In this document: positions 2,550 through 53,400 of the stretch, piece after piece
Numbering within the stretch: position 1 is the first letter of the stretch
Layout: each line of letters starts with the position of its first letter
Assembly: GCA_036250195.1 (NCBI GenBank)
Contig: JAVHZZ010000012.1
Coordinates: 92,757,615 to 92,821,614 of the forward strand
Reading direction: 5' to 3'
Length of the DNA stretch: 64,000 nucleotides
From: Mixophyes australis
Lineage: Eukaryota > Chordata > Amphibia > Anura > Limnodynastidae
Made by a program: the position numbers and the translations under genes
The notes under the pieces: generated by a model
The model's input: the letters and a program-made list of their open reading frames with translations, nothing else
The model's database searches: none
Told to the model about the DNA's origin: nothing

Positions 2550-2634
2550 ACCAAATGTTTCCAATCTCTTCCAGGACCTGAATTAAGTTCATGTTATTTT
2601 ACACAAAGCGATGACCTCCTAGGTATCTGAGCTG
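2550..2634 (+). promoter_or_regulatory. gon4l: Putative 5' UTR part of gon4l exon with three short upstream ORFs
   Basis: Follows a strong pyrimidine tract and CAG at 2549. Upstream ATGs at 2555, 2591 and 2611 open reading frames that close at 2581, 2614 and 2622, all before the proposed start at 2635. The frame of the start codon has a stop at 2620-2622. If transcribed as 5' UTR, these uORFs could limit initiation. That role is inference. Confidence 0.4.
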
Positions 2635-3345
2635 ATGGAGAGACCACCAAGGACAGAGCCTCCATCTCATGTAAAATGTTCCCTCAGAATTGAGCCAAAT
2701 GCTCCAATTCAGAGACCGCCGAGGACTAGAAATCCAGGCCCCTTGCAGCAACCACCCATATGTGAGACTTCAGGTCCCATGCAAAGGGCACCAATGTCTG
2801 GCAGTGGAGGTGCCAAGCATATCGTTGTAGCTTCTGTCCAAAGACCACCCAGGTCAGAACCTCCTGGTCCAGTGCAGAGACCACCGAGAATAGAGCCGCC
2901 AGCCCGCATGACTAAAACATCCAAAGTGACTATTTCCACTATGGAGAGACCTCCGAGGACCGATGCTCCTGTTCCTGTGGAGAGACCTCCGAGGACCGTT
3001 GCTCCTGTTCCTGCAGACAGACCTCCAAGGGCTGATAATACAGTCCACATGCAGAGACCACCGAGGACTAATCCTCCTGCCCCCGTGCAGAGACCTCCGA
3101 GGACCGATGCTCCTCTCCAAAGTCCTACAATGGCTGTTCAAGGAGGCCTGAGGATGGATCCTGCAGTCTCCATGCAAAGACCACCAAGGACAGATAATCC
3201 TGCCCCTGTGAACTTGCCACCGAGGTATGAACTTTCTGGCCCTGTACATAGAACTCCAAGGTCTGATCCACCCAGACCCCCAAGGTCTGAACCACCTGGC
3301 CCCATCCAAAGACTCTTGAGAACCGAGCCACCAGGTCCTGTTCTG
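2635..3345 (+). repeat. Coding minisatellite, 36-bp unit (12-residue RPPR repeats)
   Basis: Tandem units of the form (V/M)(Q/E)RPPR(T/S)(D/E)xPxP. They are cleanest at 2941-3120, where five 36-bp units run without indels, and degenerate on both sides. The unit keeps the reading frame. It is unrelated in sequence to the 36-bp intronic array at 5487. I recall no such repeat in human GON4L. Confidence 0.85.
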
Positions 3346-3772
3346 AAGAACGTAGGGTCTGAATCTTCTGAAACAAAGCAGAAATCCGCCAAGACCGCTT
3401 CCTCTGACCGTCTGCAAAGACCGCCAAGAGGTGGTATTTTAGATCCAGCTTCCACGCATGGTGCTTACGGTAGAGAATCTTTACCTGCTGTGCAGACGCC
3501 TTCCACAACGGCAGATTTGTCTCCCAAAAAAGGTGACACTAGATCTCCCCCTCAGAGAACTGATGGAATTGAACATGTTGATCTTGGTGTTTGTGGAAAC
3601 AGTCAAACGTCTGAATTGACAGGTGATGGATCTAACACAGGTCTGATCCCTGGTGAACACAGCTGCCTGGACTCGGACCAGAGAGCTGAGGTTGGGGCTG
3701 AACTGGAACCAGCTAAAGCTGATGAGAACAGTCCTGATGACCCTCCACGTAGTCCTGAGAAGACAGATGCAG
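2635..3772 (+). CDS. gon4l: gon4l coding exon 1 (residues 1-379), Pro/Arg repeat exon
   Basis: Contains the proposed start ATG. It encodes 12 RPPR motifs, including five back-to-back 12-residue repeats at residues 103-162 (pattern [12 protein letters not shown]), then an acidic/Ser-rich stretch. It ends GCAG|GTGAGA in phase 1. A strong acceptor (T-rich tract then CCAG) at 2549 would make 2550-2634 5' UTR in the same exon. All three frames from 2550 close before 2635. A weaker alternative is an acceptor at 2621-2622 with entry at GTA 2623. Confidence 0.8.
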
Positions 3773-6700
3773 GTGAGAGATCCATGTGCAAAGTTGTTCT
3801 TGTAGTACTGGGCTCTGGGTGGTTTCCTTACAATGCAATATCTCTTCAGTGATTGGTAGCTCTGTACAACCTATGTTCTCCCAGCTTCGTGAAGCATCAA
3901 ATAATGTACTTCCTTGAGGAATAAGGTAAATCCTAGTAATAAAGTTATTACCCATGAATAAGGATGGTTCCCGTGTCACCATGAGCACAGTGCTATTAAG
4001 TAATAGGGGTAATTAGTGCCCTCAGTAATTAAAATAAATGGACTTTAAATTTAAATTGTAATTTTGGGTTGCATTCAGTATATTAAGCTAAAATACTTGG
4101 GGGAAGTTCAATGGTCTTGAAATCTAGTGGTCCCTAACCGCCCGATGGCTGATCTTGCTCTCCTATGCGCTTATGGCCTGGCAGCTTTTCTGGTGACGCC
4201 CTCCCATGAGAAAATTCCATTGATTCGTTGAGAAGAGACCTCTGGTACAATATACACAGTATTTTAACGTCACATTCTGAAAATATTAGATGATATTCCC
4301 TTTCAAAGCTCTGGGTTGATTGAACCATCCCCCTCAGTCGTCCAGTCTGGTGATGAACGCGTTTTCCATTCTGATGTGGGGTGAAGCGCCCAGGCAGAAC
4401 CACGGGTTCTCGGGCATCCGCTCTTCTTCTGGCTCATGGTGCATTGTAATTGTTATTGACTGGGGTTGTCATTTAGTGTATGGATAATGTATTTCAAGTG
4501 GCTTTACCATTATGTATAACTGTTTATTAAATCATTTATAGAATTGAGGTGATTGATAATTCATCCCATCTTTTTTATTTCTTTTTTTATTGATGTTTAT
4601 TTTTCATGTATTGATGTGATCTATATATGATCTATATTTTTATCTTGTCTTATGTTTGTATTTGACCTGCCGGGTCCTGTACTTTATTCCACATTTATGA
4701 AATGGCGCTGTAGGTGTTTTCTGATGCAGTAATGGCCATTGAGCTGCATGCAGTTACTATGGGATGGGTAACTTGTCATTTCTAGCAGCATGTATAGAAT
4801 AAAATCCCTACTTTTCTCTGCGTCTGTTTGTGCTGTTTTAGGTGGGCACCTTTCTCCTGGAAACAGCCCATTACCATCGGAGGAAGATTCGGAGCTGTTT
4901 ATCCCGTTGGGTAAGTGCAGACTTTCCGTCATTCTACTTCCTGGTATCCGGTTTCCAGGAGAAGGAGAAAGATTGAGCAGCATTATAGTAGTATAATAAT
5001 GAAGAAGTGTTATAGCGTTTATACATGTATCTTGTTAGATGTTTTATATTCCTAGTGTCTGTGGCTTTTCCGCTTCATGTAAATCTGTGACTATCCCTGA
5101 GAATATGACAGCATTTAGGAGATACATGCTGCTCCCTAACATCGCAGGGTAGAATAAGAGTTATCTCTGTACACCCTCATGGCAGGACTGGCATAACGCT
5201 GTGTACTCCGTATCTGTCACTTATCTCTTATTTTGGCAGAAGAACAGGGTGGAGGCGATGACCAACAGAAGAAGAGGAGGAAGAGGAAGGTTTTGGGGAA
5301 GAGGAAGCGAGAGAACAAGCAGGTGGAAGATAATGACCCTCTAACCTGTGACCTAGACCAAGACCTGGATCGGGCCCTGGAAGATAGGGCCAAACACCAT
5401 AATCTTACTGTGGTGAATGTCCGGAATATCCTTCATGTGAGTGGATCTCGTTACTGTATTACCGGGACTGATTCTTGTGTGTCTGTGCCACCCACCCACT
5501 GCTAGACCCAGGATTACACTGTGCCACCCACCCACTGCTAGACCCAGGATTACACTGTGCCAGCCGCCCGCTGCTAGAGCCAGGATTACGCTGTGCCAGC
5601 CGCCCGCTGCTAGAGCCAGGATTACGCTGTGCCAGCCGCCCGCTGCTAGAGCCAGGATTACGCTGCGCCAGCCGCCCGCTGCTAGAGCCAGGATTACACT
5701 GTGCCAGCACCCCGCTGCTAGAGCCAGGATTACGCTGCGCCAGCCGCCCGCTGCTAGAGCCAGGATTACGCTGCGCCAGCACCCCGCTGCTAGAGCCAGG
5801 ATTACACTGCCAGCCGCCCGCTGCTAGAGCCAGGATTACGCTGCGCCAGCCGCCCGCTGCTAGAGCCAGGATTACGCTGCGCCAGCCGCCCGCTGCTAGA
5901 GCCAGGATTACGCTGCGCCAGCCGCCCGCTGCTAGAGCCAGGATTACGCTGCGCCAGCCGCCCGCTGCTAGAGCCAGGATTACGCTGCGCCAGCACCCCG
6001 CTGCTAGAGCCAGGATTACGCTGCGCCAGCCGCCCACTGATAGAGCCAGGATTACGCTGCGCCAGCCGCCCACTGATAGAGCCAGGATTACGCTGCGCCA
6101 GCCGCCCACTGATAGAGCCAGGATTACGCTGCGCCAGCCGCCCGCTGCTAGAGCCAGGATTACGCTGCGCCAGCCGCCCGCTGCTAGAGCCAGGATTACG
6201 CTGCGCCAGCCGCCCGCTGATAGAGCCAGGATTACGCTGCGCCAGCCGCCCGCTGCTAGAGCCAGGATTACGCTGCGCCAGCCGCCCGCTGCTAGAGCCA
6301 GGATTACGCTGCGCCAGCCGCCCGCTGCTAGAGCCAGGATTACGCTGCGCCAGCACCCCGCTGCTAGAGCCAGGATTACGCTGCGCCAGCCGCCCGCTGA
6401 TAGAGCCAGGATTACGCTGCGCCAGCCGCCCGCTGCTAGACCCAGGATTACACTGCGCCAGCCGCCCGCTGCTAGAGCCAGGATTACACTGTGCCAGCCG
6501 CCCGCTGCTAGAGCCAGGATTACACTGCGCCAGCCGCCCGCTGCTAGAGCCAGGATTACGCTGCGCCAGCACCCCGCTGCTAGAGCCAGGATTACGCTGC
6601 GCCAGCCGCCCGCTGCTAGAGCCAGGATTACGCTGCGCCAGCACCCCGCTGCTAGAGCCAGGATTACGCTGCGCCAGCCGCCCGCTGCTAGAGCCAGGAT

Positions 6701-9700
6701 TACGCTGCGCCAGCACCCCGCTGCTAGAGCCAGGATTACGCTGCGCCAGCCGCCCGCTGCTAGAGCCAGGATTACGCTGCGCCAGCCGCCCGCTGCTAGA
6801 GCCAGGATTACGCTGCGCCAGCCGCCCGCTGCTAGAGCCAGGATTACGCTGCGCCAGCCGCCTGCTGCTAGAGCCAGGATTACGCTGCGCCAGCCGCCCG
6901 CTGCTAGAGCCAGGATTACGCTGCGCCAGCCGCCCGCTGCTAGAGCCAGGATTACGCTGCGCCAGCCGCCCGCTGCTAGAGCCAGGATTACGCTGCGCCA
7001 GCCGCCCGCTGCTAGAGCCAGGATTACGCTGCGCCAGCCGCCCGCTGCTAGAGCCAGGATTACGCTGCGCCAGCCGCCCGCTGCTAGAGCCAGGATTACG
7101 CTGCGCCAGCACCCCGCTGCTAGAGCCAGGATTACGCTGCGCCAGCCGCCCGCTGCTAGAGCCAGGATTACGCTGCGCCAGCCGCCCGCTGCTAGAGCCA
7201 GGATTACGCTGCGCCAGCACCCCGCTGCTAGAGCCAGGATTACGCTGCGCCAGCCGCCCGCTGCTAGAGCCAGGATTACGCTGCGCCAGCCGCCCGCTGC
7301 TAGAGCCAGGATTACGCTGCGCCAGCCGCCCGCTGCTAGAGCCAGGATTACGCTGCGCCAGCCGCCCGCTGCTAGAGCCAGGATTACGCTGCGCCAGCCG
7401 CCCGCTGCTAGAGCCAGGATTACGCTGCGCCAGCCGCCCGCTGCTAGAGCCAGGATTACGCTGCGCCAGCCGCCCGCTGCTAGAGCCAGGATTACGCTGC
7501 GCCAGCCGCCCGCTGCTAGAGCCAGGATTACGCTGCGCCAGCACCCCGCTGCTAGAGCCAGGATTACGCTGCGCCAGCCGCCCGCTGCTAGAGCCAGGAT
7601 TACGCTGCGCCAGCCGCCCGCTGCTAGAGCCAGGATTACGCTGCGCCAGCCGCCCGCTGCTAGAGCCAGGATTACGCTGCGCCAGCCGCCCGCTGCTAGA
7701 GCCAGGATTACGCTGCGCCAGCCGCCCGCTGCTAGAGCCAGGATTACGCTGCGCCAGCCGCCCGCTGCTAGAGCCAGGATTACGCTGCGCCAGCCGCCCG
7801 CTGCTAGAGCCAGGATTACGCTGCGCCAGCCGCCCGCTGCTAGAGCCAGGATTACGCTGCGCCAGCCGCCCGCTGCTAGAGCCAGGATTACGCTGCGCCA
7901 GCCGCCCGCTGCTAGAGCCAGGATTACGCTGCGCCAGCACCCCGCTGCTAGAGCCAGGATTACGCTGCGCCAGCCGCCCGCTGCTAGAGCCAGGATTACG
8001 CTGCGCCAGCCGCCCGCTGCTAGAGCCAGGATTACGCTGCGCCAGCCGCCCGCTGCTAGAGCCAGGATTACGCTGCGCCAGCCGCCCGCTGCTAGAGCCA
8101 GGATTACGCTGCGCCAGCCGCCCGCTGCTAGAGCCAGGATTACGCTGCGCCAGCCGCCCGCTGCTAGAGCCAGGATTACGCTGCGCCAGCCGCCCGCTGC
8201 TAGAGCCAGGATTACGCTGCGCCAGCCGCCCGCTGCTAGAGCCAGGATTACGCTGCGCCAGCCGCCCGCTGCTAGAGCCAGGATTACGCTGCGCCAGCAC
8301 CCCGCTGCTAGAGCCAGGATTACGCTGCGCCAGCCGCCCGCTGCTAGAGCCAGGATTACGCTGCGCCAGCCGCCCGCTGCTAGAGCCAGGATTACGCTGC
8401 GCCAGCCGCCCGCTGCTAGAGCCAGGATTACGCTGCGCCAGCCGCCCGCTGCTAGAGCCAGGATTACGCTGCGCCAGCCGCCCGCTGCTAGAGCCAGGAT
8501 TACGCTGCGCCAGCACCCCGCTGCTAGAGCCAGGATTACGCTGCGCCAGCACCCCGCTGCTAGAGCCAGGATTACGCTGCGCCAGCCGCCCGCTGCTAGA
8601 GCCAGGATTACGCTGCGCCAGCCGCCCACTGATAGACTCAGGCCCGGCCAGTGACCTTACACCAGGCACTGCCTGATCACACGGCCCTTGACACTTTGAT
8701 TGTTTTATTCAGCAAGCAGTCCTATTTTGTTGATAGCGGTCACCCCTCGTGCTCTGTAGGACAGATTTGCACAGTGGAGGCTGCCGCCCTGCCGGGGTAG
8801 TTATAAGTTGAGGAGTAGCAGGGTCTTATAGCGAGGAGGAGTCGTGTTTTTTTCCTTCTCCGCTGCCCCTCCTCCTAAGGGGTGAACATAACCCGCTTTA
8901 TGTGTATCCCTACAGACAAGGATTAGTGTCTGGTTGTGTTTATCATAGCGCTTCTTATTGAGGAAATGGTGAAACAATATAGATTTGGGGCAAGAGGTGT
9001 AGAATCATGAAGGGTGACAACGGTGAGATGACTAATTGCAATGTGTTACTATGTTTCTATCGCTGCAGGAAGTCATCACTAATGAACATGTTGTGGCGAT
9101 GATGAAAGCCGCCATTACGGACACTGAAAGCCTACCCATGTTTGTAAGTTACTGCTCTGTATAACATATGCCTGTGGGACGGAGGATTCCTCTACACTGT
9201 GGGGTGGCACAGTGGTTAGCAGAACTGTCTTACAGCGTTGGGGTCATGGATTCCACTATATGTGGAGTTTGTATGTTCTTCCCACGTTTGCGTGTGTTTC
9301 CCCCTGGAGTCCAGAAACATACCGTTAGCTTAGTATTTGTGTTTGTGCAGGGTAGAGAATATAAAGGAAGATCCACGTCACACAAACGCCCCGTTAATGC
9401 AGAAATACTACATTAGTGGCTGTATATACCACATTGCTGCCAGTAATTCTGTACAAATAGAAGAGACTAATAGGGATTAGAGATTATGGTAAATAAATGG
9501 CATATGCTATACGCTCCCCGTCTTCTCTTCTATTTAACTGTCTCCAGATTGCAGACAGAGCAGCTTTGATTATAAGCCAAGAAATTACATACTGGTTCTT
9601 TTGTTTTTTTATTAATATAAAAAATGACACAAAACGGAAGATGAAAAGCATCACTAAACCGGTGTATAATTATAACGTTTGTAAATTTGATCACTATGGA

Positions 9701-19300: not shown

Positions 19301-22300
19301 CCTCTAGATGGACAAGAGATGAGCAATGAGAAGGATGTCCCGGAGGACGAAGAGGAAGAAGAGTTTGATATGACTCAGGATGAGGATGAAATGTCTTCTG
19401 CCTCGGAGGAGTCTGTTCTGTCTGTGCCGGAGTTACAGGTGAGATCCAGTGAGCGTTAATGAGGACTAGGGACTGTAAGTGGAAGAACAGTCTCTGCTGT
19501 GTGTGCATATACGGTGCAAATAATGTGTGTGATACAATCTGCTCTACAAGAGTGACACATTGTCCTCATAGTACTGGTTAATGTGGACTTGTGTGGTATT
19601 GTCTATCGCGCAGATGGTGGTGTGCTTTTCTCCATGTGTAATTGTGTGCACATAAGTCATGTACAGTCTACTGATTCATATATGTACATTCATATCTATA
19701 CATACATACGGTGTGTGGTTGTGTTCTCACCCATGTGTTCACAATGTGTGTGTGTGTGCACGATGCATGTGTGACCTCGCTCTTGTGTGTGTGACCTCGC
19801 TATTGTGTGTGTGTGACCTCGCTATTGTGTGTGTGACCTCGCTATTGTGTGTGTGTGACCTCGCTATTGTGTGTGTGTGACCTCGCTATTGTGTGTGTGT
19901 GACCTCGCTCTTGTGTGTGTGTGTGTGTGTGTGTGACCTCGCTATTGTGTGTGTGTGACCTCGCTATTGTGTGTGTGACCTCGCTCTTGTGTGTGTGTGT
20001 GACCTCGCTCGTGTGTGTGCACGATGTGTGTGACCTCGCTCGTGTGTGTGTGCACTGTGTGTGTGACCTCGCTCGTGTGTGTGCACTGTGTGTGTGACCT
20101 CGCTGGTGTGTGTGCACGATGTGTGAGTGACCTCGCTCGTGTGTGTGTGCACGATGTGTGAGTGACCTCGCTCGTGTGTGTGTGTGTGACCTCGCTCGTG
20201 TGTGTGCACTGTGTGTGTGACCTCGCTCGTGTGTGTGCACGATGTGTGAGTGACCTCGCTGGTGTGTGTGTGCACGATGTGTGAGTGACCTCGCTGGTGT
20301 GTGTGTGCACTGTGTGTGTGACCTCGCTCATGTGTGTGCACTGTGTGTGTGACCTCGCTCGTGTGTGTGCACTGTGTGTGTGACCTCGCTCGTGTGTGTG
20401 CACGATGTGTGTGGGTGACCTCGCTGGTGTGTGTGATCTCGGTGTCACAGCTCCGCTCTCTGCTGCTAGGAGACCATGGAGAAGCTGACGTGGCTGGCTT
20501 CAGAGAGACGCCTTAGTCAGGAGGGAGATTCTGAGGATAATTCCCAGGAGGAGAATACGGAGCCTGAGGAGGAGGAAGAAGAGGAGGCAGAGAGTATAGA
20601 AGGATTATCACAGAAACCAGAAGGAATGACAGATGAAGCCAGCGAGGAGAGTGAGAAGCTGGTAACTAGTCACTTACGTGTTCCGTCACCAGCTCCGGTG
20701 GAGGCCTGTGTAGCTCCAGCGGGTGAGTCTCACACATGTATGTCAGTCTGTGTTCCTGGTCGCCACCTCTCATCCACATACACAATGCCAGTGCCTGCTG
20801 CCCACCCTCTGCCACCATCAACACTTCCTGTAACTACACAGTGCCCTGGTCCCTTCTCCCTGGCTACCTGTACTACCCCACTGCATATCCCAGATCCCCC
20901 AACCACCCCCTGCTCACACAGTGCCCTGGTCCTTCTCCCTGGCTACCTGTACTACCCCACTGCATATCCCCGATCCCCCAACCACCCCCTCCCCACACAG
21001 TGCCCTGGTCCTTCTCCCTGGCTACCTGTACTACCCCTCTGCATATCCCCGATCCCCCAACCACCCCCTCCCCACACATTGCCCTGGTCCCTTCTCCCTG
21101 GCTACCTGTACTACCCCACTGCATATCCCCGATCCCCCAACCACCCCCTCCCCACACAGTGCCCTGGTCCTTCTCCCTGGCTACCTGTACTACCCCACTG
21201 CATATCCCGATCCCCCAACCACCCCCTCCCCACACAGTGCCCTGGTCTTTCTCCCTGGCTACCTGTACTACCCCACTGCATATCCCCGATCCCCCACCCA
21301 CCCCCTCCCCACACAGTGCCCTGGTCCTTCTCCCTGGCTACCTGTACTACCCCACTGCATATCCCCGATCCCCCAACCACCCCCTCCCCACACAGTGCTC
21401 TGGTCCTTCTCCCTGGCTACCTGTACTACCCCACTGCATATCCCCGATCCCCCAACCACCCCCTGCTCACACAGTGCCCTGGTCCTTCTCCCTGGCTACC
21501 TGTACTACCCCTCTGCATATCCCCGATCCCCCAACCACCCCCTCCCCACACATTGCCCTGGTCCCTTCTCCCTGGCTACCTGTACTACCCCACTGCATAT
21601 CCCGATCCCCCAACCACCCCCTCCCCACACAGTGCCCTGGTCTTTCTCCCTGGCTACCTGTACTACCCCACTGCATATCCCCGATCCCCCACCCACCCCC
21701 TCCCCACACAGTGCCCTGGTCCTTCTCCCTGGCTACCTGTACTACCCCACTGCATATCCCCGATCCCCCAACCACCCCCTCCCCACACAGTGCTCTGGTC
21801 CTTCTCCCTGGCTACCTGTACTACCCCACTGCATATCCCCGATCCCCCAACCACCCCCTCCCCAAACAGTGCCCTGGTCCTTCTCCCTGGCTACCTGTAC
21901 TACCCCTCTGCATATCCCTGATCCCCCAACCACCCCCTCCCCACACAGTGCCCTGGTCCTTCTCCCTGGCTACCTGTACTACCCCACTGCATATCCCCGA
22001 TCCCCCAACCACCCCCTCCCCACACAGTGCCCTGGTCCTTCTCCCTGGCTACATGTACTACCCCACTGCATATCCCCGATCCCCCAACCACCCCCTCCCC
22101 ACACATTGCCCTGGTCCCTTCTCCCTGGCTACCTGTACTACCCCACTGCATATCCCCGATCCCCCAACCACCCCCTCCCCACACAGTGCCCTGGTCCTTC
22201 TCCCTGGCTACCTGTACTACCCCACTGCATATCCCCAATCCCCCAACCACCCCCTCCCCACACAGTGCTCTGGTCCTTCTCCCTGGCTACATGTACTACC

Positions 22301-25300
22301 CCACTGCATATCCCCGATCCCCCAACCACCCCCTCCCCACACATTGCCCTGGTCCCTTCTCCCTGGCTACCTGTACTACCCCACTGCATATCCCCGATCC
22401 CCCAACCACCCCCTCCCCACACAGTGCCCTGGTCCCTTCTCCCTGGCTACCTGTACTACCCCACTGCATATCCCCGATCCCCCAACCACCCCCTCCCCAC
22501 ACAGTGCCCTGGTCCTTCTCCCTGGCTACCTGTACTACCCCACTGCATATCCCGATCCCCCAACCACCCCCTCCCCACACAGTGCCCTGGTCTTTCTCCC
22601 TGGCTACCTGTACTACCCCACTGCATATCCCCGATCCCCCACCCACCCCCTCCCCACACAGTGCCCTGGTCCTTCTCCCTGGCTACCTGTACTACCCCAC
22701 TGCATATCCCCGATCCCCCAACCACCCCCTCCCCACACAGTGCTCTGGTCCTTCTCCCTGGCTACCTGTACTACCCCACTGCATATCCCCGATCCCCCAA
22801 CCACCCCCTGCTCACACAGTGCCCTGGTCCTTCTCCCTGGCTACCTGTACTACCCCTCTGCATATCCCCGATCCCCCAACCACCCCCTCCCCACACATTG
22901 CCCTGGTCCCTTCTCCCTGGCTACCTGTACTACCCCACTGCATATCCCGATCCCCCAACCACCCCCTCCCCACACAGTGCCCTGGTCTTTCTCCCTGGCT
23001 ACCTGTACTACCCCACTGCATATCCCCGATCCCCCACCCACCCCCTCCCCACACAGTGCCCTGGTCCTTCTCCCTGGCTACCTGTACTACCCCACTGCAT
23101 ATCCCCGATCCCCCAACCACCCCCTCCCCACACAGTGCTCTGGTCCTTCTCCCTGGCTACCTGTACTACCCCACTGCATATCCCCGATCCCCCAACCACC
23201 CCCTCCCCAAACAGTGCCCTGGTCCTTCTCCCTGGCTACCTGTACTACCCCTCTGCATATCCCTGATCCCCCAACCACCCCCTCCCCACACAGTGCCCTG
23301 GTCCTTCTCCCTGGCTACCTGTACTACCCCACTGCATATCCCCGATCCCCCAACCACCCCCTCCCCACACAGTGCCCTGGTCCTTCTCCCTGGCTACATG
23401 TACTACCCCACTGCATATCCCCGATCCCCCAACCACCCCCTCCCCACACATTGCCCTGGTCCCTTCTCCCTGGCTACCTGTACTACCCCACTGCATATCC
23501 CCGATCCCCCAACCACCCCCTCCCCACACAGTGCCCTGGTCCTTCTCCCTGGCTACCTGTACTACCCCACTGCATATCCCCAATCCCCCAACCACCCCCT
23601 CCCCACACAGTGCTCTGGTCCTTCTCCCTGGCTACATGTACTACCCCACTGCATATCCCCGATCCCCCAACCACCCCCTCCCCACACAGTGCCCTGGTCC
23701 TTCTCCCTGGCTACCTGTACTACCCCACTGCATATCCCCAATCCCCCAACCACCCCCTCCCCACACAGTGCCCTGGTCCTTCTCCCTGGCTACCTGTACT
23801 ACCCCTCTGCATATCCCCGATCCCCCAACCACCCCCTCCCCACACAGTGCCCTGGTCCTTCTCCCTGGCTACCTGTACTACCCCACTGCATATCCCCGAT
23901 CCCCCAACCACCCCCTCCCCACACAGTGCCCTGGTCCTTCTCCCTGGCTACCTGTACTACCCCACTGCATATCCCCGATCCCCCAACCACCCCCTCCCCA
24001 CACAGTGCCCTGGTCCTTCTCCCTGGCTACATGTACTACCCCACTGCATATCCCCGATCCCCCAACCACCCCCTCCCCACACAGTGCCCTGGTCCTTCTC
24101 CCTGGCTACATGTACTACCCCACTGCATATCCCCGATCCCCCAACCACCCCCTCCCCACACAGTGCCCTGGTCCTTCTCCCTGGCTACATGTACTACCCC
24201 TCTGCATATCCCCGATCCCCCAACCACCCCCTCCCCACACAGTGCCCTGGTCCTTCTCCCTGGCTACCTGTACTACCCCACTGCATATCCCCGATCCCCC
24301 AACCACCCCCTCCCCACACATTGCCCTGGTCCCTTCTCCCTGGCTACCTGTACTACCCCACTGCATATCCCCGATCCCCCAACCACCCCCTCCCCACACA
24401 GTGCCCTGGTCCTTCTCCCTGGCTACCTGTACTACCCCTCTGCATATCCCCGATCCCCCAACCACCCCCTCCCCACACAGTGCCCTGGTCCTTCTCCCTG
24501 GCTACCTGTACTACCCCACTGCATATCCCCGATCTCCCAACCACCCCCTCCCCACACAGTGCCCTGGTCCCTTCTCCCTGGCTACCTGTACTACCCCACT
24601 GCATATCCCCGATCCCCCAACCACCCCCTCCCCACACAGTGCCATGGTCCTTCTCCCTGGCTACATGTACTACCCCACTACATATCCCTGATCCCCCAAC
24701 CACCCCCTCCCCACACATTGCCCTGGTCCCTTCTCCCTGGCTACATGTACTACCCCACTACATATCCCCGATCCCCCAACCACCCCCTCCCCACACAGTG
24801 CCCTGGTCCCTTCTCCCTGGCTACCTGTACTACCCCACTACATATCCCCGATCCCCCAACCACCCCCTCCCCACACAGTGCCCTGGTCCCTTCTCCCTGG
24901 CTACCTGTACTACCCCACTGCATATCCCCGATCCCCCAACCACCCCCTCCCCACACAGTGCCCTGGTCCCTTCTCCCTGGCTACCTGTACTACCCCACTG
25001 CATATCCCTGATCCCCCAACCACCCCCTCCCCACACATTGCCCTGGTCCCTTCTCCCTGGCTACATGTACTACCCCACTGCATATCCCCGATCCCCCAAC
25101 CACCCCCTCCCCACACATTGCCCTGGTCCCTTCTCCCTGGCTACCTGTACTACCCCACTGCATATCCCCGATCCCCCAACCACCCCCTCCCCACACAGTG
25201 CCCTGGTCCCTTCTCCCTGGCTACCTGTACTACCCCACTGCATATCCCTGATCCCCCAACCACCCCCTCCCCACACAGTGCCCTGGTCCTTCTCCCTGGC

Positions 25301-28300
25301 TACCTGTACTACCCCACTGCATATCCCCGATCCCCCAACCACCCCCTCCCCACACAGTGCCCTGGTCCTTCTCCCTGGCTACCTGTACTACCCCACTGCA
25401 TATCCCCGATCCCCCAACCACCCCCTCCCCACACAGTGCCCTGGTCCTTCTCCCTGGCTACCTGTACTACCCCACTGCATATCCCCGATCCCCCAACCAC
25501 CCCCTCCCCACACAGTGCCCTGGTCCTTCTCCCTGGCTACATGTACTACCCCACTGCATATCCCCGATCCCCCAACCACCCCCCTCCCCACACAGTGCCC
25601 TGGTCCTTCTCCCTGGCTACCTGTACTACCCCACTGCATATCCCCGATCCCCCAACCACCCCCTCCCCACACAGTGCCCTGGTCCTTCTCCCTGGCTACC
25701 TGTACTACCCCACTGCATATCCCCGATCCCCCAACCACCCCCTCCCCACACAGTGCCCTGGTCCTTCTCCCTGGCTACATGTACTACCCCACTGCATATC
25801 CCCGATCCCCCAACCACCCCCTCCCCACACAGTGCCCTGGTCCTTCTCCCTGGCTACCTGTACTACCCCACTGCATATCCCCGATCCCCCAACCACCCCC
25901 TCCCCACACAGTGCCCTGGTCCTTCTCCCTGGCTACATGTACTACCCCACTGCATATCCCCGATCCCCCAACCACCCCCTCCCCACACAGTGCCCTGGTC
26001 CTTCTCCCTGGCTACATGTACTACCCCACTGCATATCCCCGATCCCCCAACCACCCCCTCCCCACACAGTGCCCTGGTCCTTCTCCCTGGCTACCTGTAC
26101 TACCCCACTGCATATCCCCGATCCCCCAACCACCCCCTCCCCACACAGTGCCCTGGTCCCTTCTCCCTGGCTACCTGTACTACCCCACTGCATATCCCCG
26201 ATCCCCCAACACAGTGCTGCCACGTGTTCCCCCTCCTCGCAGCTTGGTGCTACCACATGCTCCTCCCTGATTTCTATAGCGCATGTCTAAGTAGCTGTGT
26301 CCTGCCCTGTCTGGTATGGTATTGCGGAGTTCTGATGTGGGCTTTTCTTTCCAGGAGAGCGGCGGCGTGGAGGCAGCAAGGGCCAGAGCTCACATCGAGT
26401 TAGAAGCAGAAGAGGCCGGGCACGAGCGAGCAAAGATGCCTCCAAATTGCTTTTACTTTATGATGAGAAAATCTTGATGAAGGATCCTCTGAGAGAGCAG
26501 AAGGACATGGCGTTTGCCCAGTCATATCTGAGCAGGGTGAGCGCTCTTATAACGAGGTGTCCGGTCATATCTGAGCAGGGTGAGCACTCTTATAACGAGG
26601 TGTCCGGTCATATCTGAGCAGGGTGAGCTGTCTTATAACGAGGTGTCCGGTCATATCTGAGCAGGGTGAGCGCTCTTATAACGAGGTGTCCGGTCATATC
26701 TCATCTGGGTGAGCGCTCTTATAACGAGGTGTCCGGTCATATCTGAGCAGGGTGAGCGCTCTTATAACGAGGTGTCCGGTCATATCTGAGCAGGGTGAGC
26801 TGTCTTATAACGAGGTGTCCGGTCATATCTGAGCAGGGTGAGCGCTCTTATAACGAGGTGTCCGGTCATATCTGAGCAGGGTGAGCGCTCTTATAACGAG
26901 GTGTCCGGTCATATCTCATCTGGGTGAGCGCTCTTATAACGAGGTGTCCGGTCATATCTGAGCAGGGTGAGCTGTCTTATAACGAGGTGTCCGGTCATAT
27001 CTGAGCAGGGTGAGCGCTCTTATAACGAGGTGTCCGGTCATATCTCATCTGGGTGAGCGCTCTTATAACGAGGTGTCCGGTCATATCTGAGCAGGGTGAG
27101 CGCTCTTATAACGAGGTGTCCGGTCATATCTGAGCAGGGTGAGCGCTCTTATAACGAGGTGTCCGGTCATATCTGAGCAGGGTGAGCACTCTTATAACGA
27201 GGTGTCCGGTCATATCTGAGCAGGGTGAGCTGTCTTATAACGAGGTGTCCGGTCATATCTGAGCAGGGTGAGCGCTCTTATAACGAGGTGTCCGGTCATA
27301 TCTCATCTGGGTGAGCGCTCTTATAACGAGGTGTCCGGTCATATCTGAGCAGGGTGAGCGCTCTTATAACGAGGTGTCCGGTCATATCTGAGCAGGGTGA
27401 GCTGTCTTATAACGAGGTGTCCGGTCATATCTGAGCAGGGTGAGCTGTCTTATAACGAGGTGTCCGGTCATATCTGAGCAGGGTGAGCGCTCTTATAACG
27501 AGGTGTCCGGTCATATCTCATCTGGGTGAGCGCTCTTATAACGAGGTGTCCGGTCATATCTGAGCAGGGTGAGCGCTCTTATAACGAGGTGTCCGGTCAT
27601 ATCTGAGCAGGGTGAGCGCTCTTATAACGAGGTGTCCGGTCATATCTGAGCAGGGTGAGCGCTCTTATAACGAGGTGTCCGGTCATATCTGAGCAGGGTG
27701 AGCGCTCTTATAACGAGGTGTCCGGTCATATCTGAGCAGGGTGAGCTGTCTTATAACGAGGTGTCCGGTCATATCTGAGCAGGGTGAGCGCTCTTATAAC
27801 GAGGTGTCCGGTCATATCTGAGCAGGGTGAGCGCTCTTATAACGAGGTGTCCGGTCATATCTCATCTGGGTGAGCGCTCTTATAACGAGGTGTCCGGTCA
27901 TATCTGAGCAGGGTGAGCGCTCTTATAACGAGGTGTCCGGTCATATCTGAGCAGGGTGAGCGCTCTTATAACGAGGTGTCCGGTCATATCTGAGCAGGGT
28001 GAGCGCTCTTATAACGAGGTGTCCGGTCATATCTGAGCAGGGTGAGCGCTCTTATAACGAGGTGTCCGGTCATATCTCATCTGGGTGAGCGCTCTTATAA
28101 CGAGGTGTCCGGTCATATCTGAGCAGGGTGAGCGCTCTTATAACGAGGTGTCCGGTCATATCTGAGCAGGGTGAGCGCTCTTATAACGAGGTGTCCGGTC
28201 ATATCTGAGCAGGGTGAGCGCTCTTATAACGAGGTGTCCGGTCATATCTGAGCAGGGTGAGCGCTCTTATAACGAGGTGTCCGGTCATATCTCATCTGGG

Positions 28301-31300
28301 TGAGCGCTCTTATAACGAGATGTCCGGTCATATCTGAGCAGGGTGAGCGCTCTTATAACGAGGTGTCCGGTCATATCTCATCTGGGTGAGCGCTCTTATA
28401 ACGAGGTGTCCGGTCATATCTCAGCTGGGTGAGCTATCCTATAATCAGGAGTTGGGTCCTATATGAGCAGGTTATGGTCATGTATGAGACAGTATATGTT
28501 ACATGCAGCATTTAATCATATCTCCATTGTCACATGTAGGTGCGGGAGGCTCTGCAGTCCGTCCCTGGTACATATGAAGAGTTCCTCAACCTGATCTATG
28601 AATTTGAGACGAGAGGAGACAAGAGGACGGCGGTCGACCTATATGAGAGTCTACGGCAGCTCCTTCAGGATTGGCCTCAGTTGCTCAAGGACTTTGCTGC
28701 TTTTCTACTCCCAGAGCAGGCCCTGGAGTGTGGATTGGTCAGTGTCCTCTGTGGGAACATAGTGGGGTGACAGAGAGAGTCTAGGACAGGCCTGGCCAAT
28801 CCCCAGCATGCTGAGAGCTGGCCTGGGACCTGGAGAGCCACAAGTTGGCCAGGCCTGCTCCAGGACGTTATGTTTGGCTGAAGCTCTTTATTAGTGTGTG
28901 ACCTGTTAAACGTCTCTTCCCCAGTTTGAAGAGCAACAAGCCTTTGACAAGAGCCGAAAATTTCTCCGTCAGCTGGAGATCTGTTTTCTGGAAAACCCAG
29001 CACAACACCAGAAGATCATTAAACTGCTCCAGAGCTGCGCAGAATGTCCCCTACAGGAGATAGGAAAGGTTGGTATTCCCCATGCAGTGTGTTCTCTTGC
29101 CCCATGTCTGCCCCGTGCAGGGTTCTCACTTCATGTCATTGTTTTGCTGCAGCTGAAGACACAGATGTGGCAGCTCCTGAAAGGTCACATTCATCTCCAG
29201 GAAGAGTTTTCTCTCTTCTTCGACCAGCTCAGGCCACCAGCCAGTCGAATGGGGGATTTTGAAGTTATGAACTGGACCGAGGACAAGGAGTACAAGGTGA
29301 GTAGACGAGAACGGAGGGAACTTATACAGATATCATGGGACAATTCATTCTATATATTTAATGCATTCATGTATATCTGAAGAAACTGTGTAAAACTACC
29401 TGGGTGTCATTCACTCCCGATCTTTTTATACTAATATAATGTTTACTAGATCACTCTCATTTACATAAGGAAACTTCTGTTGGAAGATGAAGGAAATAAC
29501 AGTAATACAGCAATCATGATATATAGGCAATAATTTCTATGAGTGTAGTTATATACTAGTTATTGGTAACCTCCCGTTACTGGAAGGTAGATTGTGCTGT
29601 GCATATGGTTCTGTCCAGTGTTCTTCAACCAAGCTCTATGGTGTTATGAGAGGTATGGATGGCTACCTAAGAGATGACTAGCGCAATACAGTGCTCCCTG
29701 CACTGAGGGCACGCTCTCACTACAGCGAGGTGAGTGCAGTCATGGATTGTACTAAAGCTGTAAAACAACAAGTTGTGCACATAGGCATCACCGGAATTTT
29801 GTTGTTGAAGCTCCTGCCAGTACATGGGTTATTCAGACGTACTGATAGCTGCTCAGAAGACGGCTGACCTCTCTCTGGCATATATAAAGGTCCTCGTACC
29901 TGTGCTCAGCTGTGCCCAGTGGTGATTGGCTGCCATCCCTGGGGAGGAACAGCCTCCCATGTGTCCCTAGGAGCGTGGCACCGTTTTCTACATTGCTGTC
30001 GTTCCTGGAGTGTCAGACAGGACAGACAAATATTAAGGCTAGTGGATATGAGAGCTCCCTCTGGGTTATTCCCAAAGAGCCCGATCCATGCTCCAGGGTC
30101 TTTTGGACGCAACGGTTGGAGTGAAAACCCCATTTCCTTTTGAGGTTCCAGAACCAAACCTCTCTGGTGCCCAAGATAGCCAGTTACTTCCATCCAGTAT
30201 TGGACCTATAGCCCTCACAGAAGCGATTCAGGATGGAATGTGGTGTATTGGTGAGACATGAGAGAAGGGAGCTTCTGGCATCCTGGGATGTGAATGACAC
30301 AGATCTACACATCCTCATCTGGGGCGCACATGTCATTGGTTCGTTGGGTACTTACCAAGGTCATGGCTTTCACAGTACTAAATAAATAAATAAATAAAAA
30401 AATCGCCTTTATTTTTCTATTTAGTTTTCTGTGGGTAGATAAAATCTTTTTCATTGACCATAGCCCTTGGGTCAGTGTACAGGACAGTTGTGTAGCAGAT
30501 ACAGAGGTTGAGGTGTTGAGGTCCAAGTAATCGACTAATTGGATGTGTGTGGATTATGGATAGAACAGGACATTTGTGATGTGTTGTGCATGAAAATGGT
30601 TTTGTTTTGTTCTCCATAGTTTGATGGCTTTGAAGAAGTCACCCTACCGGATGATGAAGAGGAGGAGGAACAGAATAAGATGCCCTCCGCTCAGAGGAAC
30701 AAGAAACGGAAAGACCCTAGTCAAGGACAGGACAAGGTAAGGCGGAGCTGACCTCTGCAGGTCATGGACTGTCCTTCGCTCAGAAGTCAGACTGTCAATG
30801 GTGGTCTAGATCTTGAATCATTTGTGTAAAACACCTGCTAGGTTGTCGTATAACTGTGACATATTGCCGCCTAAAGTATGGATCATCGATCCCTATATAA
30901 AGATGGCACCAAAGTACATAGATTTAAAGTAAACGCTGCCTTTATGGTCCATCCAGCTCTAATAGTACGTACCAATGATGCATGACAAGTGGTCATGTTT
31001 CAGGACAGTTTTTGGATACACCCAGTCAGAGGCCATTCCAAGAAAAGAGGATTTTTTTTCTCCTTAATTTATTTTAATTCTTTAGGAGGCCTGTTATATC
31101 CATGTATTAGAACCCACCCGTTTCTTTCCCTTTAGATCGTATTTTCTTTTCTAGCAGAATAATTCTTCCTGTTCTTGACTCCACCTCGCTGTAGTGGGTG
31201 AGTTGTTCATTGCCCCCTGGTTATCCATAAGGGAAGACTGTGATATTACATATTAATGGTTAGCATCAGGCAACAGCTCAGGGTACAATGGGGTATCTGT

Positions 31301-47400: not shown

Positions 47401-50400
47401 CCCTTTATCACAGCGCTGACCCATACACCCGTCACTCACCCTTCACATCCAGGACAATGAGACGCGGCGTGTAGGTCTCCACCCCATGTAGCGTCATCCC
47501 GCGCCGGAATAGGACATTGCTGGAGATCTCCGGGTCCAAGCGTCGTCTGTCTGACTGGTGAGAGAGCTCTGCCTCCTGAGGGGGGAGATGGGGGAATGAG
47601 GGGTCCGAAACTCAACTTCTCTCCTCCACCTACCCGTGACCTTGGATCATTTACCTGATCTCTCTATACTCAAGTAGTCCACTTCTGCCCCCAGGGGCAC
47701 CTATTTCATACTACTGCCACCCTATCCGCCTGCAACACTGTGTACCTGCCCCTCCTACACCGCTTATTGCCCCATACTCCCCCCACAGTCTACCCCACCC
47801 TCCTGCCCCTCTCACACCGCTCATTGACCCATACTCCCCCCCCCCCACATTCTACCCCACCCTCCTGCCCCTCTCACACCGCTCATTGTCCCATACTCCC
47901 CCCACACGGTCTACCCCACCCTCCTGCCCCTCTCACACCGCTCATTGTCCCATACTCCCCCCACACGGTCTACCCCACCCTCCTGCCCCTCACACCGCTC
48001 ATTGTCCAATACTCCCCCCACACGGTCTACCCCACCCTCCTGCCCCTCTCACACCGCTCATTGTCCCATACTCCTCCCCACACGGTCTACCCCACCCTCC
48101 TGCCCCTCTCACACCGCTCATTGTCCCATACTCCCCCCACACAGTCTACCTCACCCTCCTGCCCCTCTCACACCGCTCATTGTCCCATACTCCCCCCACA
48201 CAGTCTACCCCACCCTCCTGCCCCCCTCACACCGCTCATTGTCCCATCCTCCCCCCACAGTCTATCCCACCCTCCTGCCCCCCTCACAACGTTCATTGTC
48301 CCATACTCCCCCCACACAGTCTATCCCACCCTCCTGCCCCTCTCACACCGCTCATTCTCCCATACTTCCCCCACACGGTCTACCCCACACTCCTGCCCCT
48401 CTCACACCGCTCATTGACCCATACTCCCCCCACACGGTCTACCTCACCCTCCTGCTCCTCTCACACCGCTCATTGTCCCATACTCCCCCCACACGGTCTA
48501 CCCCACCCTCCTGCCCCTCTCACACCGCTCATTGTCCCATACTCCCCCCACACGGTCTACCCCACCCTCCTGCCCCTCTCACACCGCTCATTGTCCCATA
48601 CTCCCCCCACACGGTCTACCCCACCCTCCTGCCCCTCTCACACCGCTCATTGTCCCATACTCCCCCCAAACGGTCTACCCCATCCTCCTGCCCCTCTCAC
48701 ACCGCTCATTGTCCCATACTCCCCCCACACGGTCTACCCCACCCTCCTGCCCCTCTCACACCGCTCATTGTCCCATACTCCCCCCAAACGGTCTACCCCA
48801 TCCTCCTGCCCCTCTCACACCGCTCATTGTCCCATACTCCCCCCACACGGTTTACCCCACCCTCCTGCCCCCCTCACACCGCTCATTGTCCCATACTCCC
48901 CCCCACACGGTCTACCCCATCCTCCTGCCCCCCTCACACCGCTCATTGTCCCATACTCCCCCCACACGGTCTACCCCATCCTCCTGCCCCTCTCACACCG
49001 CTCATTGTCCCATACTCCCCCCACACGGTCTACCCCATCCTCCTGCCCCTCTCACACCGCTCATTGTCCCATACTCCCCCCACACGGTCTACCCCACCCT
49101 CCTGCCCCTCTCACACCGCTCATTGTCCCATACTCCCCCCACACGGTCTACCCCACCCTCCTGCCCCTCTCACACCGCTCATTGTCCCATACTCCCCCCA
49201 CACAGTCTACCCCACCCTCCTGCCCCTCTCACACCGCTCATTGTCCCATACTCCCCCACACAGTCTACCCCACCCTCCTGCCCCTCTCACACCGCTCAGT
49301 GTCCCATACTCCCCCCACACGGTCTACCCCACCCTCCTGCCCCTCTCACACCGCTCATTGTCCCATACTCCCCCACACACAGTCTACCCCACCCTCCTGC
49401 CCCTCTCACACCGCTCATTGTCCCATACTCCCCCCACACGGTCTACCCCACCCTCCTGCCCCTCTCACACCGCTCATTGTCCCATACTCCCCCCACACGG
49501 TCTACCCCACCCTCCTGCCCCCCTCACACCGCTCATTGTCCCATACTACCCCCACACAGTCTACCCCACCCTCCTGCTCCTCTCACACCGCTCATTGTCC
49601 CATACTACCCCCACACAGTCTACCCAACCCTCCTGCCCACCTCACACCGCTCTTTGTCCCATACTCCCCCCACACAGTCTACCCCACCGTCCTGCCCCTC
49701 TCACACCGCTCATTGTCCCATACTCCCCCCACACAGTCTACCCCACCCTCCTGCCCCTCTCACACCGCTCATTGTCCCATACTCCCCCCACACAGTCTAC
49801 ACCACCCTCCTGCCCCCTCTCACACCGCTCATTGTCCCATACTCCCCCCCCCCCACACAGTCTACCCCATCCTCCTGCCCCTCTCACACCGCTCATTGCC
49901 CCATACTCCCCCCACACAGTCTACCCCATCCTCCTGCCCCTCTAACACCGCTCATTGCCCCATACTCCCCCCACACAGTCTACCCCATCCTCCTGCCCCT
50001 CTCACACCGCTCATTGTCCCATACTCCCCCCCCCCCCACACGGTCTACCCCATCCTCCTGCCCCTCTCACACCCCTCATTGTCCCATACTCCCCCCACAC
50101 AGTCTACCCCATCCTCCTGCCCCTCTCACACCGCTCATTGTCCCATACTCCCCCCCCACACGGTCTACCCCATCCTCCTGCCCCTCTCACACCCCTCATT
50201 GTCCCATACTCCCCCCCACACGGTCTACCCCACCCTCCTGCCCCTCTCACACCTCTCATTGTCCCATACTCCCCCACACAGTCTACCCCATCCTCCTGCC
50301 CCCCTCACACCGCTCATTGTCCCCATACTCCCCCACACAGTCTACCCCATCCTCCTGCCCCTCTCACACCGCTCATTGTCCCATACTCCCCCCACACAGT

Positions 50401-53400
50401 CTACCCCACCCTCCTGCCCCTATCACACCCCTCATTGTCCCATACTCCCCCCACACGGTCTACCCCACCCTCCTGCCCCTCACACCGCTCATTGTCCCAT
50501 ACTCCCCCCACACGGTCTACCCCACCCTCCTGCCCCTATCACACCGCTCATTGTCCCATACTCCCCCCCACACGGTCTACCCCATCCTCCTGCCCCTCTC
50601 ACACCCCTCATTGTCCCATACTCCCCCCCCACACGGTCTACCCCATCCTCCTGCCCCTCTCACACCCCTCATTGTCCCATACTCCCCCCCACACGGTCTA
50701 CCCCACCCTCCTGCCCCTCTCACACCTCTCATTGTCCCATACTCCCCCACACAGTCTACCCCATCCTCCTGCCCCCCTCACACCGCTCATTGTCCCCATA
50801 CTCCCCCACACAGTCTACCCCATCCTCCTGCCCCTCTCACACCGCTCATTGTCCCATACTCCCCCCACACAGTCTACCCCACCCTCCTGCCCCTCTCACA
50901 CCGCTCATTGTCCCATACTCCCCCCACACAGTCTACCCCACCCTCCTGCCCCTATCACACCCCTCATTGTCCCATACTCCCCCCACACGGTCTACCCCAC
51001 CCTCCTGCCCCTCACACCGCTCATTGTCCCATACTCCCCCCCACACGGTCTACCCCACCCTCCTGCCCCTATCACACCCCTCATTGTCCCATACTCCCCC
51101 ACACAGTCTACCCCATCCTCCTGCCCCTCTCACACCGCTCATTGTCCCATACTCCCCCCCACACGGTCTACCCCACCCTCCTGCCCCTCTCACACCCCTC
51201 ATTGTCCCATACTCCCCCCACACAGTCTACCCCACCCTCCTGCCCCTATCACACCCCTCATTGTCCCATACTCCCCCCACACGGTCTACCCCACCCTCCT
51301 GCCCCTCACACCGCTCATTGTCCCATACTCCCCCCACACGGTCTACCCCACCCTCCTGCCCCTATCACACCGCTCATTGTCCCATACTCCCCCCCACACG
51401 GTCTACCCCATCCTCCTGCCCCTCTCACACCCCTCATTGTCCCATACTCCCCCCCCACACGGTCTACCCCATCCTCCTGCCCCTCTCACACCCCTCATTG
51501 TCCCATACTCCCCCCCACACGGTCTACCCCACCCTCCTGCCCCTCTCACACCTCTCATTGTCCCATACTCCCCCACACAGTCTACCCCATCCTCCTGCCC
51601 CCCTCACACCGCTCATTGTCCCCATACTCCCCCACACAGTCTACCCCATCCTCCTGCCCCTCTCACACCGCTCATTGTCCCATACTCCCCCCACACAGTC
51701 TACCCCACCCTCCTGCCCCTCTCACACCGCTCATTGTCCCATACTCCCCCCACACAGTCTACCCCATCCTCCTGCCCCTATCACACCCCTCATTGTCCCA
51801 TACTCCCCCCACACGGTCTACCCCACCCTCCTGCCCCTCACACCGCTCATTGTCCCATACTCCCCCCACACAGTCTACCCCACCCTCCTGCCCCTATCAC
51901 ACCCCTCATTGTCCCATACTCCCCCACACAGTCTACCCCATCCTCCTGCCCCTCTCACACCGCTCATTGTCCCATACTCCCCCCTCAGTCTACCCCACCC
52001 TCCTGCCCCTCTCACACCGCTCATTGCCCCATACTCCCCCCACACAGTCTACCCCACCCTCCTGCCCCTCTCACACCGCTCATTGTCCCATACTCCCCCC
52101 ACACGGTCTACCCCACCCTCCTGCCCCTCTCACACCCCTCATTGTCCCATACTCCCCCCACACGGTCTACCCCACCCTCCTGCCCCTCTCACACCCCTCA
52201 TTGTCCCATACTCCCCCCACACGGTCTACCCCACCCTCCTGCCCCTATCACACCGCTCATTGTCCCATACTCCCCCCACACGGTCTACCCCACCCTCCTG
52301 CCCCTATCACACCGCTCATTGTCCCATACTCCCCCCTCACGGTCTACCCCAACCTCCTGCCCCTCTCACACCGCTCATTGTCCCATACTCCCCCCACACG
52401 GTCTACCCCACCCTCCTGCCCCTCTCACACCGCTCATTGTCCCATACTCCCCCCACACGGTCTACCCCATCCTCCTGCCCCTCTCACACCGCTCATTGTC
52501 CCATACTCCCCCCACACGGTCTACCCCACCCTCCTGCCCCTCTCACACCGCTCATTGTCCTATACTCCCCCCACACGGTCTACCCCACCCTCCTGCCCCT
52601 CTCACACCCCTCATTGTCCCATACTCCCCCCACACAGTCTACCCCACCCTCCTGCCCATCTCACACCGCTCATTGTCCCATACTCCCCCCACACGGTCTA
52701 CCCCATCCTCCTGCCCCTCTCACACTGCTCATTGTCCCATACTCCCCCCACACGGTCTACCCCATCCTCCTGCCCCTCTCACACCGCTCATTGTCCCATA
52801 CTCCCCCCACACAGTCTACCCCACCCTCCTGCCCCTCTCAAACCGCTCATTGTCCCATACTCCCCCCACACGGTCTACCCCACCCTCCTGCCCCTCTCAC
52901 ACCGCTCATTGTCCCATACTCCCCCCACACGGTCTACCCCACCCTCCTGCCCCTCTCACACCGCTCATTGTCCCATACTCCCCCCACACAGTCTACCCCA
53001 CCCTCCTGCCCCTCTCACACCGCTCATTGTCCCATACTCCTCCCCACACAGTCTACCCCACCCTCCTGCCCCTCACACCGCTCATTGTCCCATACTCCCC
53101 CCACACGGTCTACCCCATCCTCCTGCCCCTCTCACACCGCTCATTGTCCCATACTCCCCCCCACACAGTCTACCCCACCCTCCTGCCCCTCTCACACCGC
53201 TCATTGTCCCATACTCCCCCCTCACAGTCTACCCCACCCTCCTGCCCCTCTCACACCGCTCATTGCCCCATACTCCCCCCCACACAGTCTACCCCACCCT
53301 CCTGCCCCTCTCACACCGCTCATTGTCCCATACTCCCCCCCACACAGTCTACCCCACCCTCCTGCCCCTCTCACACCGCTCATTGTCCCATACTCCTCCC

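Follow-up and report, generated by a model that had tools for sequence, protein, structure and literature searches.

A 43-bp mirage-type minisatellite repeats a gon4l 5' splice site about 45 times in the frog Mixophyes australis

In a 64,000-nucleotide stretch of the Mixophyes australis genome (assembly GCA_036250195.1, contig JAVHZZ010000012.1, positions 92,757,615 to 92,821,614 of the forward strand; hereafter the window, to which all coordinates refer), an exon of gon4l runs directly into a tandem array whose 43-bp unit carries the exon's own 5' splice site. The array is genuine: a long minisatellite of the mirage type, situated in a conserved frog gene, and a repeat of a known kind taken to a striking degree. 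We consider it likely that it is a passenger whose founder straddled the donor and which is tolerated because the first donor wins; the array itself is most likely without function. The locus is a natural test of donor choice: it presents 45 donors at a fixed 43-nt pitch, 35 of which share the same nine bases, and only the first is productive. It could reveal how steep first-donor preference is, and copy-number variation between animals, if any, would provide a dose series.

Anatomy of the array

Tandem Repeats Finder (TRF) reports the array at 26521-28471, with a period of 43, 45.4 copies, 95% matches and 0% indels. Unit-by-unit cutting yields 44 units in exact register, without insertion or deletion, followed by two decayed ones (Table 1). 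In each unit, which carries one donor, 16 nt derive from the exon and 27 nt from the intron, and unit 1 itself spans the modelled border with 16 exonic and 27 intronic nt. A preliminary description of this DNA, made from its letters, had proposed a gon4l 5' splice site amplified about 45 times in near-identical context, which TRF and the unit cutting bear out; its unit rightly contained the last 16 coding nucleotides, but began at 26513, 8 nt too early.

The donor GT is present in all 45 of units 1-45, and the nine donor bases read AGGGTGAGC (AGG/GTGAGC) in 35/45 and TGGGTGAGC (TGG/GTGAGC) in 10/45. Among the 44 exact-register units, 26 equal the consensus, and the others fall into classes that are interspersed along the array (C-T-T, n = 9, one with a further change; TG, n = 7; single A, n = 2), the mean pairwise difference being 1.7 of 43 bases. 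In this one allele the two units at the 3' end are decayed, whereas the unit at the 5' end is consensus. None of 20,000 letter shuffles reached the consensus match of either decayed unit, while the 43 bp beyond unit 46 match at chance level (10/43) and those preceding 26521 at 7/43. The register, the unit classes and the decayed end units together form the pattern of a minisatellite under turnover.

Outside the array, no copy of the 43-bp unit with at least 28/43 ungapped matches was found on the + strand of the window. A higher-order repeat within the array was also considered and set aside, as the 15 lags tested gave P = 0.014 at lag 5 and P = 0.025 at lag 8, values that do not convince once corrected. 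A single AG of the array, at 28470 in decayed unit 46, scores higher than the 25th percentile set by the gene's real acceptors.

Table 1. Features of the gon4l array and its flanking exons
Feature	Position	Strand	Basis
gon4l exon, 19th of the window model (exon 22 in the preliminary description), 182 nt, ending ...TCATATCTGAGCAGG, phase 0	26355..26536	+	open 28-exon model; protein runs on into next exon in relatives
44 tandem 43-bp units, exact register	26521..28412	+	TRF and unit-by-unit cutting
Authentic 5' splice site AGG/GTGAGC	26537..26542	+	28-exon model
TGA in unit 3, met by transcripts from any of donors 3-45	26615..26617	+	frame test
Decayed unit 45, donor kept	28413..28455	+	33/43 consensus matches (10 mismatches)
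Decayed unit 46, donor lost	28456..28498	+	25/43 consensus matches (18 mismatches)
Next gon4l exon, 20th of the model	28540..28737	+	28-exon model
TGA met by transcript from donor 2, 35 nt into the next exon	28575..28577	+	frame test

The gene model and the exon border

The window gene model consists of 28 exons between 9069 and 35105 that form a single open frame of 1756 amino acids; two further upstream exons that fit the family, 4842-4910 and 5240-5436, lie outside it. That the exon bearing the array is exon 22 of the gene, as numbered in the preliminary description, is plausible. The intron between model exons 19 and 20 measures 2003 nt and is almost wholly array. The last 569 residues of the protein contain PAH and Myb-like domains (PF02671, E = 3.2e-16; PF21227, E = 5.1e-25), and a solved SIN3 PAH aligned gap-free across the exon join.

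A homologue search with residues 1180-1460 returned 537 proteins. Among the 120 matches listed, the named proteins are mostly GON-4-like, and named frog GON4L proteins share 81-84% identity over these residues; a Pseudophryne protein reaches 91% over 262 aa. No array-sized insert at the join occurs in the 120 relatives listed of 537: 113 match a junction motif that tolerates few spare residues, and the remaining seven are unbroken by eye. In a second set of relatives, a looser junction motif matched 28/44. A ten-row tree groups the window gene with Pseudophryne corroboree, a myobatrachid, at full support, and a twenty-row tree without Pseudophryne puts it outside the sampled ranoid and hyloid frogs. 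On this one gene, the source is probably a myobatrachoid frog of Australia. The border at 26536/26537, on which the preliminary description depended, is correct, given the open frame through 28 exons and the unbroken relatives.

Reading frame from later donors

We joined the exon up to each of the 45 donors to the next exon and translated the products. Only donor 1 stays open, and 0/44 downstream donors give an open reading frame. The transcript from donor 2 meets a stop in the next exon, and those from all further donors meet one within unit 3 (Table 1), including those that add multiples of three. The earlier statement that only every third copy keeps frame is therefore right as arithmetic, but not one of the downstream donors is open. 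Since all of them lead to a stop, the ladder of protein isoforms that had been suggested is excluded for this allele. The TGA of unit 3 is absent from the C-T-T units, and alleles with another unit order could thus differ in frame outcome.

From the later donors the exon would grow to between 225 and 2,074 nt, and eight or nine exon junctions would follow the premature stops. A stop with exon junctions downstream is a target of nonsense-mediated decay (NMD), and mRNAs from the later donors should be such targets. The 28-exon frame is intact and the protein is close to that of other frogs; with every other donor unproductive, donor 1 must be spliced productively to a sufficient extent.

Placement against chance

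The preliminary description had remarked that most tandem arrays avoid exon borders. To place the array against chance, the six arrays of the modelled gene were each collapsed to one founder unit and placed randomly 20,000 times. Random founders straddled a border 1.4 times on average, with a simulated probability of at least one of 0.81; the calculated probability is 0.43, 0.50 or 0.64 when the exonic part of the founder is capped at 16, 20 or 30 nt, respectively. One border-straddling array among six is the null expectation, and the placement is unsurprising, so that the remark makes no surprise of this locus. Border-spanning minisatellites are moreover an already described kind (PMC3087553, PMC3902484, PMC2812944).

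Known border-spanning repeats

The name mirage was given to tandem repeats spanning an exon-intron border in amphioxus Adh3 (PMC3087553), and further examples come from the amphioxus globins BflGb6 and BflGb9 (PMC3087553), from PGBD5 (PMC3902484) and from troponin C. In these genes regular splicing is reported or argued to be undisturbed, and the end copies are excluded from homogenisation (PMC3087553, PMC3902484). The gon4l array resembles them in that the repeat crosses an exon-intron border and the units carry splice signals. Amphioxus copy numbers are small, however (3 and 6 units in BflGb6; 2 or 7 and 3 or 6 in PGBD5), whereas gon4l has 44 near-identical units, in a vertebrate gene, with downstream donors that are unproductive by frame.

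The human gene IFI6, also called 6-16 or G1P3, has minisatellite units of 12 nt, so that extra units can keep the frame. With gon4l it shares a minisatellite that offers multiple splice donors to one exon; it differs in that gon4l has 43-nt units and every later donor ends in a stop, leaving no coding isoforms downstream. Three IFI6 mRNA species are described, with donors at the border and in two downstream units of the repeat (PMC4526556). Turri et al. 1995, by its title, reportedly concerns the same human minisatellite.

In human segmental duplicates, variable internal tandem repeats at borders alter exon-intron structure (PMC2812944), a minisatellite change at exon-intron borders as in gon4l. 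Those units average 30 bp in 4 copies and lie in recently duplicated genes (PMC2812944), in contrast to the conserved gene described here, with its 44 successive copies of one donor. A literature search, largely without subscription papers, found neither an amphibian border-spanning repeat nor a border-spanning array with as many near-identical donors. In the excerpts on the intron minisatellites of fish myostatin and earthworm metallothionein, repeated donors are not the subject.

Origin of the array and use of the first donor

The reading that we favour begins with a 43-bp stretch across the gon4l exon-intron border that would have been duplicated and then expanded, probably by slippage or unequal exchange, after which turnover would keep the copies uniform while those at the 3' end decay. 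Splicing would go mostly to donor 1, as the intact gene and the precedents suggest; such a strong preference for the first donor was one of the options raised in the preliminary description. Exon definition is a general principle of splice-site pairing. What sets donor 1 apart from the later copies is the true exon before it and how far it lies from the upstream 3' splice site. These differences point to exon definition: the upstream 3' splice site and exonic signals may pair with the nearest adequate donor, that of the 182-nt exon. Occasional use of a later donor would yield a premature-stop mRNA, to be removed by NMD.

We scored splice sites with donor and acceptor matrices trained solely on this gene, which supplied 27 donors and 28 acceptors. 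The authentic donor ranks 18/27 in the gene by the leave-one-out matrix and 16/27 by U1 duplex energy. Across the ~1935 nt examined, and counting the true donor, 35 GTs equal or exceed its score, where 2.1 would be expected at the rate of the gene's non-array intron sequence (10 such sites in 9343 nt); donor-like sites in the array are beyond chance. The matrix puts the 10 TGG copies 1.9 bits lower, a deficit not seen in U1 duplex energy (-9.3 vs -9.0 kcal/mol).

Several points weigh against preferential use of donor 1. Its nine donor bases are identical to those of 34 other copies and give it no advantage, which rules out donor strength as the cause of first-donor use; something besides donor sequence must therefore choose the first. 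By predicted folding it is also among the less accessible copies, ranking 35-39/45 for being unpaired under three settings, and 7-11 of the gene's other 26 donors are predicted to be less accessible than it is. In a predicted hairpin at 26509-26546, the exon stretch GGCGTTTGCCC pairs with the first donor, GGGTGAGCGC; this hairpin, equalled in folding by 12/200 shuffles of the 81-nt stretch, may partly bury donor 1 and would weaken it if real. Folded singly, the three unit classes tried have no advantage over shuffles, of which 196, 111 and 179 out of 200 did as well; this result and the low accessibility rank of donor 1 lead us to reject RNA structure as the cause of first-donor use. Of two comparable donors, moreover, the intron-proximal one is favoured, for a cause that is called unknown with reference to Roca et al. 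2013 (PMC6002489), and such a preference would predict use of the last donors rather than the first. In DOK7 intron 4 the intron-proximal site gives the main transcript, aided by SRSF1, yet it is also the stronger site (PMC5585400). Finally, the downstream repeat donors of human IFI6 are actually used. Since intron-proximal choice would leave the gene hardly any protein, the locus sets two principles against each other.

Alternative explanations

The most serious alternative, though an unlikely one, is a poison ladder, in which the later donors are truly used, NMD destroys the products and the array brakes gon4l by copy number. The premature stop from every later donor would suit it, as would the intron-proximal preference known for two comparable donors (PMC6002489). 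Because the 43-nt pitch exceeds the U1 footprint, 23 nt upstream and 12 nt downstream of the donor (PMC6002489), all donors could be occupied simultaneously. Against this stand the amphioxus mirages, reported or argued to leave splicing undisturbed, and the fact that selection is not needed to account for the array's placement and anatomy. The specific version in which a share of gon4l pre-mRNA is diverted to decayed transcripts and tuned by copy number seems to us less probable again; if true, the repeat number carried by an individual would set its GON4L dose.

That the length of the array is an assembly artefact is improbable. Tandem repeats are generally assembled less well, and the short-read draft of a different Australian frog shows poorly paired reads clustered at such repeats (PMC9632003). 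The 44 copies nevertheless include several interspersed unit classes and are followed by decayed end units, arrays of similar style occur across the window, and 1.95 kb is short enough for one long read.

We give very little credence to the array as a local U1 depot, guarding the transcript, for example, from premature polyadenylation. It would offer 45 donor-like sites within one intron, and U1 is known to suppress polyadenylation (PMC3826338); the array intron, however, lacks the poly(A) hexamers AATAAA and ATTAAA, four overlapping ones of which lie three introns on, ~2 kb downstream. A single cell holds about a million U1 particles. Set against this number, the 45 sites per transcript make the U1 titration raised in the preliminary description unlikely.

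Functional longer protein isoforms are the least credible explanation: the donors are equivalent in sequence, but the frame test contradicts such isoforms for this allele, and an array-encoded peptide motif was not found in 164 relatives.

Other arrays in the window

The main TRF arrays sum to ~39 of the 64 kb of the window. A 79-bp array of ~68 copies (20836-26210) fills most of the intron preceding the 182-nt exon, which is thus flanked by two large arrays. We considered a mirror ladder of acceptors there and rejected it, as 0/59 AGs in the 79-bp array reach the 25th percentile of real acceptors and 2 reach the weakest.

Further upstream, a TG-rich imperfect array (19768-20441) stops 28 nt short of the acceptor for the gon4l exon at 20470, its end lying near the expected branch-point position. 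A 36-bp array of ~88 copies (5483-8636) begins 47 nt past the site at 5436, which is likely a gon4l donor. Both strands of this array can be read for over 1000 codons, since its unit length is divisible by three and the frames concerned contain no stops. A diverged 36-bp repeat (2942-3118) falls within an open stretch of 409 codons (2623-3852), where its predicted product is a proline/arginine-rich repeat of 12 residues; it is possibly a coding minisatellite of an upstream exon. The 59-bp array at 47745-63396 (~265 copies, 15.7 kb) has very long open stretches in several frames.
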